This document shows positions 49,720-55,113 of a DNA stretch of 64,000 nt, piece by piece. The notes under the pieces are model-generated. The model saw only the letters and a program-made list of their open reading frames with translations. It was not told the origin of the DNA and made no database searches. Source of the DNA: Ruminococcaceae bacterium BL-4 (GTDB lineage: Bacteria; Bacillota; Clostridia; Oscillospirales; Acutalibacteraceae); the NCBI GenBank assembly GCA_902809935.1, contig LR778134.1:558001-622000 (forward strand). Direction: 5' to 3'. How positions within the stretch are numbered: position 1 is the stretch's first letter; each line of letters opens with the position of its first letter. Made by a program: the position numbers and the translations under genes.

Positions 49720-50511
49720 ATGAAAACGGATGCAAAACTAGAAATCAACAACAAAAACGATTCCAAAAAAGAAGGAATAATTGCCGGACGCAACGCAGTA
49801 AAAGAAGCGCTCAACAGCGGCCGCGAAATTGATACGCTGTTTGTTGTCCGTGGGGAACACAGCGGCAGCCTTGGCGCATTAATTGCCGAAGCAAAAAAGC
49901 GCGGCACCGTCATCAAAGAAGCAGATGCGAAAAAGCTTTCCTTCCTTTGTGGGGGATGTGCGCATCAGGGCGTTGTGGCAGTTGCTGCCGCTAAAGCATA
50001 CGCTACACTCGACGATGTTTTTGCGCTGGCCAAATCCCGTAATGAACCGCCGTTTTTGATTGTGGCGGACGAACTGGAAGACCCTCATAACCTGGGGGCA
50101 ATTCTGCGGGTAGCCGAATGTGCAGGAGCCCACGGTGTTATTATTCCAAAACGCAGAAGCGTTGGTCTCTCTTATGCAGTAGGAAAATCGAGCGCCGGAG
50201 CAATCGAATATGTGCCGGTTGTACGCGTCAACAATCTTTCTGCCACTCTGGAAGAACTAAAAAGCCGTGGTTGCTGGCTCTATGGAGCTGATATGGACGG
50301 AGAATCATGGTGTACTCTCGATTACCGTGGTCCATGCGCAGTTGTCATCGGAAGTGAAGGATTCGGTATCGGAAGACTCGTACGAGAAAAGTGTGACTTT
50401 ATTGTCTCTCTTCCCATGAAAGGAAAAATCAACTCCCTCAACGCATCTGTTGCCTGCGGAATTATCTGTTATGAAATTGCACGGCAGCGATCCGGCCTTA
50501 AATCCAAGTAG
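49720..50511 (+). CDS. rlmB: RlmB/TrmH family 23S rRNA 2'-O-methyltransferase
   Basis: SpoU-family enzymes methylate ribose 2'-hydroxyls of rRNA with S-adenosylmethionine; RlmB modifies G2251 of 23S rRNA. The 263-residue protein has an N-terminal substrate-binding domain (about 15-95, IIAGRNAVKEALNSG) and a knotted SPOUT domain with the three motifs DELEDPHNLGAILRVAE, VIGSEGFGIGRLV and LPMKGKINSLNASVA. It is followed after 15 bp by the P-type ATPase-like gene, so they probably share a message. Confidence 0.92.
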   Translation: MKTDAKLEINNKNDSKKEGIIAGRNAVKEALNSGREIDTLFVVRGEHSGSLGALIAEAKKRGTVIKEADAKKLSFLCGGCAHQGVVAVAAAKAYATLDDVFALAKSRNEPPFLIVADELEDPHNLGAILRVAECAGAHGVIIPKRRSVGLSYAVGKSSAGAIEYVPVVRVNNLSATLEELKSRGCWLYGADMDGESWCTLDYRGPCAVVIGSEGFGIGRLVREKCDFIVSLPMKGKINSLNASVACGIICYEIARQRSGLKSK

Positions 50512-50526
50512 AAAGTAGGGGATACG

Positions 50527-53500
50527 ATGGACGAAAAGAAACAAAACCCAGGTTATTCCCTGGATGAAATTTTAGCAGAAACCGCGGCTAAAAAAGAAGC
50601 CGCCAAAAAATCGGCCGCTTCTGCTCCAAAAACAGAAAGCCCGATTCATAAAGTACCTTTAGAAGAAATTTCCCGCAATCCTTATGCAAAAGAAAACAAA
50701 AACCCATCTTCTCAAAAGCCAACCCCAACGCCTTCAAAAGCGTCTATGGAAAAGCAAAGTGAGACACAAAGCCAGAAAAAGAAAAAGAAAAAAAATTCTA
50801 AGGATCAAATCACCTCCGGTGAAAATGATATTTATTATGGTCTAAAGTTAAAATCCCGCGAAGAATACCAACGGGAATATGAAGAGACCATGTCTTTTAA
50901 ACCAATCCGTCCGGAAGAAAATCCGAAGGGCGCTACAGGGACTTTTTCTTATTTGTTTGATCCCAAGCGCAAAAAAGAACGGGATCCAGAACTAGAAGAA
51001 AGATTTCGTAAACTTCATCAGGAGCGCCGCAAACGAGTTGAAAAAGTGGTACAAGATCCTGAGCAGGAAGATATTTTTTCCATTACCACCGCAATCAGCC
51101 TAAAAGAAATTCAGGAAGCCGCTGCTAAACGCGGTTCCAAAATGCAGTATAAGCCCATCGAAGAAAAAACCGCAAAAACCAATTTGGCCACCACGGAAAA
51201 GCCAGTTTTTCATAAACCGACGATGCCCTTAAAAACTTCCGCCGCTGCTAACGAAAAACCAGTTCCGGTAAAAGAGCCCACGATAACTCCGCCGCTGCCG
51301 CATAAAGAGTCTTCTGCGCCAAAAGTAGAAGAGCCGGTCACGCGACCAGAGCCTGTTCGAGAAAAAGCCTCTGCTCTCTTGGCCTCAGATTTTGCGATTA
51401 AACCTGTTAATAAAAAAGTTTCTTACCGCTATCAAACTGATCCCATTCATTTTATTGAGGTTGATGATCTTTCTTTTCCTCTAAAAGAAGCGGCCAAAAC
51501 TTATTCCAAAAATGGCATGCCACAGGATGATGCCGTTGATTTTTTATCAGCCCGTAGAAAAGACTTGGAAAAGGTCAATCCAATTGAACCTTCTAAAAAA
51601 GAGGTTTCTGCCCCTGCGCCGATTTCGTCCATTGAAGTTCCGAAAGAAAAGCCAACCCAGCAAAAACTGACAGAGCCTATCAAAGCGGACGAAAAATCGA
51701 GACAGACTTCTCTGCCTGCCCCAAAACCAAAGAAAAAAAAACGCTCTCTTTTCCATCTTTCAGGCATGGACGAACCGGAAAATGATCCATCGGAAGAAGC
51801 ATTGCCCAAAGAGGTCCAAGAAGTAGAAGATTACAGCAACAGCAATGATGCTCCTGCCATTTTTCACGATTTAAATGCAAATTTAAGAAAACTTTCTTTG
51901 CGTTTGGGTGTCACCGGAATTTCGACTATCCTGCTGCTGATCTTCGGCTGGCTGGGTGAATTCGGATTTTTTGGATTCCAACGGCTGAACATCACTGTTT
52001 ACCTTATTTGTAACGTGATCTTCACTACGATCGCCTTTGTATTCTGCGAAGCAACCATTTGGAATGGACTAAAATCACTGTTCCGGTTCCATGCCAATTC
52101 GGATAGTGCGGTTGCAATCGCTGCAATTGCCGCTCTTGTTCAATCCATTATGGCGTTTTTCATGCAAACACGTTTTTCCTCTGGTTCTCTCAATCTTTAT
52201 GCAAGCGTAGCAACTGCTGCATTGTTTCTCAATACATTAGGAAAATTCAGCATGATCAAACGGATTAACAAGAACTTTCATTTTGTTGTTTCGCCGGATA
52301 AAAAATATGCTGTGACGTTGTTTGAAGACTATAATACTGGCTTACAATTGGCAGATGGCTGTACAATGGATACCCCGGTGATCGCTTACCAGACCGAAAC
52401 CAATTTCTTATCCCATTTTCTCCGTCTTTCTTACGAAGACGACCCAAGCGATCGCGCCAATCAAACGATTGCACCTGTTGCTTTTTTAGCAAGTTTGGTT
52501 CTCTGTATTATTACTTTAGTTCTGACAAAAGATGTTGTGACCGCATTTACTGCATTTGCAGCGGCAACTTGCATCACGACTCCTTTTATGAATTTACTAG
52601 CTGTAAATCTTCCGCTTGCAAGAATCAGCCGAATCGCTTCTCAGTGCGGCGGCATGGTGATCGGATTTCCTGCTGTTCAGCATTTCTGCGAATCAAATGC
52701 AGTGATGATGGATTCTCAGGATCTGTTCCCCAAAAACACGGTAATCCTAAATGGAATCAAAACTTTTAAAAACACTTCCATTGACGATTCTCTTATGGAG
52801 GCAGCAGCACTGATGATTGCCGCTCATTCTCCGCTTTCTTCTTTGTTTGATCAAGTAATTCATACACAGCACAAAAAGCTTCCGGAAGTTGAAAAATTTT
52901 CTTATACAGACGGACAAGGTTTAAGCGGTTGGATTAATGGTCATCGGGTTTTTGTTGGAAACCGTGAACTGCTCTCTGCTCATAAAATTGAGCCACCTGA
53001 AGAAGCCATTGAACAAAAATATATTCAGGGCGGAAAAAAGCTGGTTTATCTTGCAATTGGCGGGGAACTAATCGCCATGTTGATCATTACCTATAGCTGT
53101 GACCGCCGCCGCCTTCAGGAATTGCGCCGAATGGAGAATAACGGAATTTCTTTGATTTTACGCAATTGTGACCCAAATATCACCCCAACTTTTCTGGCCG
53201 AACTTTTTGGCTTGGATCCAAATGGCATTCGAGTCCTGCCAGAACGCTTAGGAGCGCTTTATGTTAGCCGTACCCGCGAGGCATGCGATGAGAAACCAGC
53301 CATGATTGCTACAAAGGGACGCCCTACGGCACTGATGCGTTTAGTGACCGCTTGTGTACGAGAGCGCGGAAACATCTCCATTGCCATTGTTCTTCAAAAT
53401 GTCGCTGTTGTTCTCGGTTTCATAATGGTAGCATTACTTACCTGCTATTCCGGTTTACAGCAAATTTCCACCATGAGCCTGATTGTCTACGAATTTTTCT

Positions 53501-53544
53501 GGGCAATGGTGATTTGGCTTGTTCCAAAGCTGCGCAAACCCTAA
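50527..53544 (+). CDS. Degenerate P-type ATPase-like membrane protein with a long disordered N-terminus
   Basis: This 1005-residue protein has two parts. Residues 1 to about 450 are low-complexity, rich in Lys, Glu, Pro and Ser. Residues about 460-1005 follow the layout of P1B-type metal ATPases: four helices (about 461-600), a short loop, two helices (about 660-700), a large cytosolic domain and two final helices (about 949-1000). The metal-binding position in the sixth helix reads CITTPF (C682, P686). The phosphorylation motif DKTGTLT reads DSQDLFP (D729), so the aspartate is kept but the rest is lost. GQGLSGWINGHRVFVGN near 797 matches the nucleotide domain, while the A-domain TGE and the GDGxND motif are missing. 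I infer an inactive ATPase relative. It is cotranscribed with rlmB. Confidence 0.72.
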   Translation: MDEKKQNPGYSLDEILAETAAKKEAAKKSAASAPKTESPIHKVPLEEISRNPYAKENKNPSSQKPTPTPSKASMEKQSETQSQKKKKKKNSKDQITSGENDIYYGLKLKSREEYQREYEETMSFKPIRPEENPKGATGTFSYLFDPKRKKERDPELEERFRKLHQERRKRVEKVVQDPEQEDIFSITTAISLKEIQEAAAKRGSKMQYKPIEEKTAKTNLATTEKPVFHKPTMPLKTSAAANEKPVPVKEPTITPPLPHKESSAPKVEEPVTRPEPVREKASALLASDFAIKPVNKKVSYRYQTDPIHFIEVDDLSFPLKEAAKTYSKNGMPQDDAVDFLSARRKDLEKVNPIEPSKKEVSAPAPISSIEVPKEKPTQQKLTEPIKADEKSRQTSLPAPKPKKKKRSLFHLSGMDEPENDPSEEALPKEVQEVEDYSNSNDAPAIFHDLNANLRKLSLRLGVTGISTILLLIFGWLGEFGFFGFQRLNITVYLICNVIFTTIAFVFCEATIWNGLKSLFRFHANSDSAVAIAAIAALVQSIMAFFMQTRFSSGSLNLYASVATAALFLNTLGKFSMIKRINKNFHFVVSPDKKYAVTLFEDYNTGLQLADGCTMDTPVIAYQTETNFLSHFLRLSYEDDPSDRANQTIAPVAFLASLVLCIITLVLTKDVVTAFTAFAAATCITTPFMNLLAVNLPLARISRIASQCGGMVIGFPAVQHFCESNAVMMDSQDLFPKNTVILNGIKTFKNTSIDDSLMEAAALMIAAHSPLSSLFDQVIHTQHKKLPEVEKFSYTDGQGLSGWINGHRVFVGNRELLSAHKIEPPEEAIEQKYIQGGKKLVYLAIGGELIAMLIITYSCDRRRLQELRRMENNGISLILRNCDPNITPTFLAELFGLDPNGIRVLPERLGALYVSRTREACDEKPAMIATKGRPTALMRLVTACVRERGNISIAIVLQNVAVVLGFIMVALLTCYSGLQQISTMSLIVYEFFWAMVIWLVPKLRKP

Positions 53545-53568: not shown

Positions 53569-53605
53569 AGGCCCTGCGTCATTCTAATGACGCAGGGCTT
53601 TTTTT
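53569..53605 (+). terminator. Terminator of rlmB/P-type ATPase-like operon
   Basis: GCCCTGCGTCAT pairs with ATGACGCAGGGC and is followed by seven T; it also suits the convergent gene. Confidence 0.92.
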
Positions 53606-53620
53606 CAGCTTTTTACATTT

Positions 53621-54268
53621 TTAAAAATCTAATTTTTCGAAAGTAGAAATCGATTTTCGGTAAGCAATTCTTGTAAAAATGATATAAAGTACGAACCCAA
53701 CCACCAACATGATCAGTTTTTGGGACAGATACATGGGATCTCTCGTATTCAGCTGATCGCGGAAAAATGGCACTGCAAAAACAAATACCTCTAAAATCAC
53801 CATTACTGTAAAAAATACAATGCTGGAAATTGCAAAAGCTTTTCCCACTTTATCAGGTTTGCGATAATAAAGCACAAAAAAGATCAGGTTGAAAACCCCC
53901 ATTAAGAAAAATACATTCCCAAAAAGCGCTATATTTGCATCCATCCCCGCCTGATTGCCTTCTGGAATTAAGTAGTTCCTTAAAAAGACAAACGGAATTG
54001 ACACTAAAACTTGTATCATCTGCAAAAGGATCACAAACAGAAATCTTGCCTGCACAATAGATTTTTTTTGAATCGGCAGCAATAATGAATATTCAATATC
54101 ATGATTCTCCCGCCCGCTAAGGCAATGAAAGAAGACAGCCAAACAGGTGTAAAAAAATATGACTTCATAAGGATAATTCGGTATCAACAGCAGCGCTGAC
54201 AGCAGTAAAAACAACGGCGCTGTGGGATGCAGTGCAATCTTGATCTCTTTATAAATCAAATTTTTCAT
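53621..54268 (-). CDS. ABC-2 type membrane permease component
   Basis: The 215-residue protein has about six hydrophobic helices and opens with MKNLIYKEIKIALHPT, wording typical of small ABC-2 permeases in Firmicutes. It overlaps the stop of the ATPase gene by 4 bp and forms an exporter with it. Substrate unknown; such pairs often handle antimicrobial peptides or lipids. It ends near a terminator shared with the convergent operon. Confidence 0.85.
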   Translation of the reverse strand: MKNLIYKEIKIALHPTAPLFLLLSALLLIPNYPYEVIFFYTCLAVFFHCLSGRENHDIEYSLLLPIQKKSIVQARFLFVILLQMIQVLVSIPFVFLRNYLIPEGNQAGMDANIALFGNVFFLMGVFNLIFFVLYYRKPDKVGKAFAISSIVFFTVMVILEVFVFAVPFFRDQLNTRDPMYLSQKLIMLVVGFVLYIIFTRIAYRKSISTFEKLDF

Positions 54269-55113
54269 GCTGATTCCCTCTTCTCCAAATGAATCATAAT
54301 GGATTCCAAGTCCGCCGGATAGTAATCAAAATTCCCTTGCGGCAGATGATCTTTATAGAAAAGAGCACTGAATCCGTCTTTTTCGCGCTTATATCCCGCA
54401 AGATATGGTTTTAATGGTCCTGTCATTTGCTCTTTGGAAAAATTGCAGAGAACAAATTGATTCTGAAATTCTTTTAGCTTTCCTCTCCCAATTATTTCTC
54501 CTTTTTTTAAATAGAGAATCTCTTCTGCACATTTTTCTAAATCCGAGGTAATATGGGTCGAAAACAAAATCGTAACGCCATCTTCTTCAACAAGATCCAA
54601 AAACACATCCAGCAGATCATCTCTAGAAACCGGATCCAGTCCACTGGTAGGTTCATCGAGGAGCAGCAGTTTTGCCCGATGAGAAAGCGCCAGCGCCAAA
54701 GAATATTTTACTTTCATGCCTGCCGAAAGGGAATCCGGCACTTTATCTTCATCCAGTTCAAAGCGTTTTAAATACTTTTTATAAGCTGCTTCATCCCACT
54801 GCGGATAAAATCTTTTCGTAACCGAAGTAATGGTACGCAGTTTCTTTTTCGGATAAAAAGAAATCCCCCCCGAAACAAAGCCGATCTTCTGCTTAATTTC
54901 AAATTCATTCTCCTGAAAGGACTGTCCAAAAAATTGAATCTCCCCCTTATCCGGATGAACAAAATTGAGCAAAGATTTTAGGGTTGTGGTTTTCCCCGCT
55001 CCATTTCTCCCAATAAATCCGGTAATGACACCCTCTTGCAGCTCAAAACTAACATTTTTTAACGAAAAAGATGGATAAGATTTCGAAAGTCCCGAAACCG
55101 ATAAAACTGACAT
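54265..55113 (-). CDS. ABC transporter ATP-binding protein (YtrB-like)
   Basis: The 282-residue ATPase has Walker A GRNGAGKTT, the signature LSAGMKVKYSLALAL (LSAGM in place of LSGGQ), Walker B LLLDEPTSG and a switch histidine in FSTHITSDLE. The modified signature is common in the YtrB/BcrA-like groups. It pairs with the permease gene it overlaps. The promoter carries GTATTAC repeats typical of GntR/YtrA-controlled exporters, but no GntR gene is adjacent, unlike the usual layout. Confidence 0.9.
   Translation of the reverse strand: MSVLSVSGLSKSYPSFSLKNVSFELQEGVITGFIGRNGAGKTTTLKSLLNFVHPDKGEIQFFGQSFQENEFEIKQKIGFVSGGISFYPKKKLRTITSVTKRFYPQWDEAAYKKYLKRFELDEDKVPDSLSAGMKVKYSLALALSHRAKLLLLDEPTSGLDPVSRDDLLDVFLDLVEEDGVTILFSTHITSDLEKCAEEILYLKKGEIIGRGKLKEFQNQFVLCNFSKEQMTGPLKPYLAGYKREKDGFSALFYKDHLPQGNFDYYPADLESIMIHLEKRESA

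Follow-up and report, generated by a model that had tools for sequence, protein, structure and literature searches.

A conserved P1B-ATPase-like membrane protein without pump motifs, encoded beside rlmB in Oscillospirales

A gene pair in Ruminococcaceae bacterium BL-4 joins an rRNA methyltransferase to a large membrane protein that is predicted to fold like a heavy-metal (P1B) ATPase and that has lost the motifs of such a pump; this protein is called the pseudo-pump here. The pair lies in a window of 64,000 nucleotides, the whole stretch analysed (GenBank assembly GCA_902809935.1, contig LR778134.1, positions 558,001 to 622,000 of the forward strand). Coordinates are those of the window, and features are on the + strand unless otherwise given. 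The first gene of the pair, rlmB (49720..50511), encodes a 23S rRNA (guanosine(2251)-2'-O)-methyltransferase of 263 residues, which scores 233.2 bits with the NCBIfam model TIGR00186 against a cut-off of 160.15 and is therefore a regular RlmB by NCBIfam. The start codon of the pseudo-pump gene (50527..53544) stands 15 nt past the end of rlmB and opens an uninterrupted open reading frame of 1005 residues. After the stop comes a terminator-like 12-pair stem (53571..53598), found by a stem scan that assigns it to the - strand; on the + strand, the stem is followed by TTTTTTT. An earlier note, made from the sequence alone, took the two genes to be cotranscribed. The strong stem with its seven-T run and the 15-nt gap make one transcript likely, and to that extent the claim stands: the two genes are probably one transcription unit.

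The pseudo-pump is divided into an N-terminal arm and a membrane-bound core. The arm (residues 1-432; 50527..51822) is rich in Lys, Glu and Pro (15%, 12% and 11% of residues 1-425) and mostly disordered, in that 313 of its 432 residues fall within segments of predicted local distance difference test (pLDDT) score below 50 in the full-length AlphaFold2 model. Conserved blocks were read from an alignment of 42 full-length proteins, the window protein and 41 others. These are the N-terminal helix motif YSLDEILAE (residues 10-29; 50554..50613), for which the consensus is DFSLEEILAE, the block DIYYGLKLK..EEY...YE (101-122; 50827..50892), the helix E..RF..L..ERR.RV (154-176; 50986..51054) and the block YR....P[IV]H.I...L...L.EA..Y (300-326; 51424..51504). 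They match predicted helices at residues 12-29, 111-122, 154-176 and 316-326 (low confidence; pLDDT about 55 for the last). In the core, the helices MA, MB, M1 and M2 (residues 439-588; 51841..52290) are placed by model secondary structure and alignment, with names assigned by comparison with P1B pumps. They are followed by a remnant of the A (actuator) domain (589-639; 52291..52443), recognized from the alignment, the model and segment lengths. The N (nucleotide) domain (52732..53097) keeps its fold, as judged by the model, comparison with the PDB and the alignment. It leads into the second half of the P domain (53098..53322) and then the helices M5 and M6 of the model (933-1002; 53323..53532).

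The motifs by which a P1B pump is known are replaced or removed. The phosphorylation motif DKTGTLT reads D729-S-Q-D-L-F-P735 (52711..52731), and in M4 the CPC metal motif, which is present in the organism's own P1B pumps L001 and L003, reads CITTPF at residues 682-687 (C682 to P686 at 52570..52584). In the P domain, the TGD motif is N-C-D882 and the Lys position of motif III is D859. Neither TGE nor GDGxND was found in the window protein. The GDGxND region is deleted rather than substituted: with anchor points picked by eye, the segment between VLP and the M5 start has 45 residues as against 77 in L001 (32 missing), and that between LGK, where M2 ends, and the A-M3 linker has 51 as against 109 (58 missing). 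The core model likewise has 51 residues in the M2-M3 loop, the site of the actuator domain in pumps. With 58 and 32 residues missing relative to L001, two moving parts of a pump are physically gone rather than altered by substitution. In a global hhalign comparison with the own-genome pumps L003 and L004 the A domain aligned poorly (Prob 40.7), and the P-domain part of that comparison was used solely to place motif III. The N-x-D of M1, the form found in P1B pumps, is kept as N524-S-D526, and the M4 motif and the P-domain Asp are spaced 47 residues apart, compared to 44 in L001 and L003. In M5 and M6, the metal residues typical of P1B pumps were judged by eye to be gone.

The protein does resemble P1B pumps, but at the level of sequence the resemblance is weak. 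The window protein matches the NCBIfam CopA model PRK10671 at residues 642-907 with an E value of 6e-20 (71 bits against a cut-off of 1316) and TIGR01525 with an E value of 1.4e-12 (47.2 bits against 346.25). With phmmer, it matches 3rfu, a copper P1B ATPase, at E 6.7e-11, and a Pfam search of the protein gave no match. When family cores were scanned singly, PRK10671 was matched at E <=0.01 by 70/70, the HAD model PF00702 of Pfam by 3/70 and the E1-E2_ATPase Pfam model by 0/70. An AlphaFold2 model of the core (residues 439-1002), built with 70 aligned sequences, has a pLDDT of 88.7 and a predicted template modelling score of 0.84. Its top match in the PDB is 3rfu (Z 24.0 over 463 residues, with a root mean square deviation of 8.8), followed by 4bbj, ATP7B and HMA4, with Ca2+-ATPases, MgtA and KdpB below; the Foldseek match to 4bbj has an E value of 1.4e-19. 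The helices of the model agree with MA, MB and M1-M6, an eight-helix topology, and the core is thus predicted to have the heavy-metal ATPase fold over nearly its whole length. The pseudo-pump descends by fold from a P1B pump, yet it is not a member, since the defining motifs tested fail. The description in the earlier note is borne out in these respects: it had proposed a P-type ATPase-like protein that follows the P1B helix and domain order in its second half, has lost the phosphorylation and hinge motifs, TGE and CPC, and carries a huge Lys/Glu/Pro-rich disordered tail. The tail corresponds to the N-terminal arm. The A domain goes further than proposed, in that most of it is deleted.

The same losses are found in the homologues. 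A core match was found at 120 loci of the family (Acutalibacteraceae), and eight of these were excluded for no rlmB found: seven with an open frame reaching the locus end, and L126, whose frame is broken by a masked stretch and whose arm reaches the locus end. The remaining 112 loci hold 101 distinct proteins, with 11 duplicates between two collections; the named loci are the top 80 among 138 that were confirmed. To these were added 19 members that represent 12 further families in the order (Oscillospirales). The earlier note had asked whether homologues retain DKTGTLT and GDGxND and whether a predicted structure matches P-type ATPases; the structure does so, as described above, and no intact motif was seen at the right place, with GDGxND in 0/112 and 0/19 and DKTGT at the phosphorylation site in 0/112 and 0/19. 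Four matches to DKTGS by regular expression (regex) at the 112 loci all lie inside the disordered arm. TGE was matched in the last 620 residues of 13/112 and 1/19 proteins; those of L073 and L192, which lie nearest to the A-domain remnant, have no TGES context, and the others are elsewhere by position. For the pattern [CST]P[CHS], only the TPS of L085 falls at the M4 site, and CPC is there in none. As a control, strong profile matches outside the order were read, and 8/8, namely the top five and three others, proved to be intact pumps with DKTGT, TGES, GDGIND and CPC. At the old phosphorylation site, a pattern of acid, hydrophobic residue, aromatic residue and Pro recurs. The catalytic acid is displaced one residue later in many rows from other families (L188-L207), so that D-A-x-[DE]-L-F-P stands against x-D-x-[DE]-V-F-P; this change of register between families is possibly a record of drift at the site after loss of function.

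The pseudo-pump is widely retained. Searches with the family profile covered genomes within the class, with a threshold of E <=1e-36, which is stricter than the best match outside the order (1.5e-34). A match was present in 184/200 genomes of the family and in 317/346 sampled genomes of the order, the order matches having been inspected down to about 1e-47 (approximately 5e-48 to 5e-49). The gene is carried by, among others, Caproiciproducens, Anaeromassilibacillus, Acutalibacter, Neglectibacter, Faecalispora and Scatolibacter, which we take to be Acutalibacteraceae of the Oscillospirales in GTDB. When the window protein is compared with two near relatives, the core has a ratio of nonsynonymous to synonymous substitution rates (dN/dS) of 0.039 and 0.034, and arm residues 1-425 have 0.185 and 0.163. 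Sixteen family genomes have no match. Six of them (G033, G041, G048, G086, G090 and G109) also have no RlmB above the cut-off, by gene loss or an assembly gap, and the remaining ten do have RlmB above it. In G140, a core fragment (E 1.1e-34) is cut by a contig end; an arm-like reading frame is cut by a contig end in G111, with the N-terminal motif present, and in G079, with it absent; and in G156 and G005 the contig stops within 410 nt of rlmB. Clear losses with rlmB retained are seen in G093, G067, G181 and G193 (1.0-1.2 Mb) and in G099 (1.8 Mb), at loci L258-L261 and L264. Small genomes of 0.9-1.1 Mb can retain the pseudo-pump, as in G046, G116 and G165. Spread by phage was also considered and dropped, as one profile scan of viral contigs gave no relative.

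The linkage to rlmB is the most constant feature of the neighbourhood. A same-strand rlmB within 1.5 kb upstream was found at 112/112 family loci with upstream DNA, the set from which loci with no rlmB found had been excluded. At the loci in other families, rlmB lies upstream on the same strand in 19/19. Given the assumed start codons, the gap between the two genes is -10 to 69 nt in 102/112, and three gaps are of at least 500 nt. In a neighbourhood table of 41 loci, 40 of them from the listed matches, rlmB was picked in 36/41, and the five missed by the greedy reading-frame picker were recovered by direct search. The next most constant adjacent gene, downstream, is rpe-like and was seen in 9/41; the downstream gene is variable across loci. 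The rpe-like gene, named by eye as ribulose-phosphate 3-epimerase, follows the pair at L050, L052, L053, L055, L057, L059, L062, L063 and L067. Convergent to the pseudo-pump in the window (53621-55113, - strand) are an ABC ATPase resembling PmtA, which at 240.9 bits falls short of the 350-bit cut-off, and a small membrane protein without an NCBIfam family; in the 41 loci, both adjoin the pseudo-pump only in the nearest relative, L037.

The arm is common but not universal. Across the family loci, whole proteins range from 682 to 1642 residues with assumed start codons. A strict regex for the N-terminal motif is matched by 60/112 arms (53/101 distinct proteins) and a looser version by 66/112; several further arms have, by eye, a similar short I[DE]xI[LI]xE sequence. 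A regex for YYGL is matched by 44/112 arms (37/101 distinct proteins). The helices give the arm the look of a series of docking peptides. In the organism's own genome, only the pseudo-pump gene matches a strict DNA pattern for [FY]S.[DE][DE]IL, and a reversed control pattern also matches once. In 20 relatives, matches near the start of a long frame resemble the pseudo-pump (L211, L214, L217, L218, L219, L224 and L226, with the core not confirmed for each), and the remaining matches are internal or in short frames. The own genome and these 20 relatives gave no further carrier of the strict docking-motif pattern.

That the protein cannot pump is well supported by the motifs and segment lengths, and absence of activity would follow from the motif losses. 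We consider it moderately probable that the pseudo-pump does not pump and serves at the membrane as a scaffold or receptor for cytosolic partners, whichever these may be. A P1B-type metal ATPase in the ancestor of the order would have lost phosphorylation, dephosphorylation and the metal site, and would have been retained as a membrane anchor of eight helices that holds a P/N headpiece in the cytosol. Most members seen also have the long disordered arm with its short conserved helices. Headpiece and arm helices would bind cytosolic partners and keep them at the membrane. RlmB, 23S rRNA maturation and membrane-bound ribosomes are the first candidates for partner or process, since rlmB precedes the gene at all loci examined; naming RlmB or the ribosome as the partner is a guess. 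A more specific version is tentative and on balance unlikely: the former P1B ATPase would be a membrane platform whose arm helices dock RlmB or maturing ribosomes, such that a step of 23S rRNA maturation occurs at the membrane or is controlled from it, with the headpiece sensing or binding. The earlier note had seen a conserved pseudo-pump with a new role in sensing or scaffolding. Its first part is well supported by the predicted fold and by motif losses in all homologues read; the role itself is something that we infer, made more likely by the conserved arm helices and the unbroken rlmB linkage. The mean frequency of the top residue is 0.56 in P1 and N, 0.48 in M1-M2, 0.47 in the second half of the P domain, 0.43 in M5-M6, 0.42 in M3-M4 and 0.36 in MA-MB, a pattern that, as weak evidence, somewhat favours a platform or receptor over a transporter.

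Several other explanations can be weighed against a scaffold or receptor. The loss of all catalytic motifs might be expected of a decayed pump copy that is being lost in the source organism, but the losses are common to all homologues read, the core is under purifying selection (dN/dS 0.03-0.04) and matches extend across the sampled order genomes, so that decay is rejected as scarcely credible. An unorthodox active ATPase, in which Asp729 or an adjacent acid would still be phosphorylated in a rearranged active site, is improbable. In the core alignment of 69 family cores and the window protein, position 729 is D in 65/70 rows and E in 5/70, D882 is D in 70/70, the fold of the N domain is kept, and G798 and G811 are invariant (70/70); of the N-domain GxG, the first G is present in 35/70 and the second in 70/70. 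Against such an enzyme, motif I has lost its K, T, G and T, the Lys position of motif III is Asp in 60/70, motif IV is deleted together with its Asp residues, as is TGE, the HP position of the N domain has His in 0/70, and the acid changes register across the order. A sporulation-specific membrane protein is even less probable. The order contains many spore formers, and SpoIVA, the single marker used, is above its cut-off in 166/200 family genomes; however, it is found in 154/184 genomes with the pseudo-pump and in 12/16 without it, no clear association in these 200 genomes, and some genomes, for example G047 (99% complete), have the pseudo-pump and no SpoIVA match.

The main rival is a role in ligand sensing or as a channel, which we regard as possible but rather doubtful. 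In that case, D526, C682, N694 and Q957 would form a site for an ion or ligand, and either the headpiece would report its occupancy or the ligand would pass without ATP. These residues are indeed retained in the family cores (D526 in 70/70, Q957 in 69/70, N694 in 67/70 and C682 in 58/70), and P686 and W992 are conserved in at least 85% of 57 rows, among which the rest of the order is represented too. However, CPC and, by eye, the M5 and M6 metal residues are gone, P686 is Pro in 54/70 family cores and Ala in 16/70, and the membrane part is mostly the least conserved, with M1-M2 as the exception. A further alternative concerns only the partner, and is contained in the scaffold or receptor reading rather than additional to it: a scaffold or receptor unrelated to RlmB, the pair being kept by shared expression alone, is a real possibility, if not a probable one. 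The variable downstream gene and the retention of RlmB in at least five genomes that lack the pseudo-pump fit this alternative, and the constancy of rlmB upstream while other neighbours change does not.

Some observations count against the scaffold or receptor reading, its link to RlmB included, or against the evidence for it. The five genomes that keep rlmB without the pseudo-pump indicate that RlmB does not need it, and operon linkage can be purely regulatory; contact with RlmB is not proved by linkage. Four open frames of 550-554 residues in one family of the order (L205/G609, G635, G658 and G689) are armless, with core-profile matches that begin late, at column 43-66; rlmB stands 3 nt upstream of the armless L205. 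The 317 matches in the order may include ordinary pumps. The acid at the catalytic position 729, together with the Thr of TGD, which is Asn in the window protein and kept in 62/70 family rows, makes some phosphate chemistry formally possible. Finally, the argument from conservation is weak, given that M1-M2 is on par with the second half of the P domain and that the headpiece is well conserved in true pumps too.

Comparison with known systems can be made at several levels. The P1B heavy-metal ATPases CopA, ZntA and ATP7B share with the pseudo-pump the order of MA, MB, M1-M6, P and N, the N-domain fold and the spacing from M4 to Asp; the pseudo-pump differs from them in its lost DKTGTLT, TGE, GDGxND, HP and CPC, the A segment of 51 rather than 109 residues, the disordered arm of more than 400 residues and the rlmB neighbour. 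Degradosome scaffolds of the RNase E type are membrane-tethered proteins of RNA metabolism with a disordered arm that bears short docking helices, and the likeness is in the layout of membrane tether and helix-bearing arm only. The client-binding N-terminal helix of PopZ has a short motif, S-[hydrophobic]-[DE]-[DE]-I-L, with a few-letter resemblance to the N-terminal motif of the pseudo-pump, in a different protein and phylum.

P-type ATPase relatives that are inactive or disputed have been described in eukaryotes. According to passages of one study, human TMEM94 has P-type architecture without TGES, as the pseudo-pump does; ATPase activity was not detected, autoinhibition is possible, and AMPPCP is bound with micromolar affinity (PMC12134183). 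Unlike the pseudo-pump, this human protein has ten helices and an A-like domain (CTD1) with eight strands and five helices (PMC12134183). Its status as a pump is disputed in print, and elsewhere it is reported as ERMA, a Mg2+ ATPase (PMC13322241). GC-beta of Plasmodium, one of the alveolate guanylate cyclases, is described in passages of a further source as having a P4-ATPase-like domain with degenerate signature motifs (PMC6592433). It is a precedent for a degenerate P-type domain retained beside another function, but GC-beta is eukaryotic, of P4 type and fused with a cyclase. Among the matches listed in the open-licence literature, only eukaryotic relatives of this kind turned up, and no report was found, with some narrow phrases among the searches, of a bacterial pseudo-pump that stands alone and is retained throughout an order; the passages seen of a review (PMC10654040) had nothing on pseudo-pumps. 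FUPA families of P-type ATPases are among the matches listed, which included no account of the present family.

The pseudo-pump combines presence in most sampled genomes of an order with no Pfam match and, at all loci examined, an adjoining rRNA methyltransferase gene. Should it be a scaffold, it would show how the shape of a transport machine can outlast the loss of its cycle and be put to a different use.

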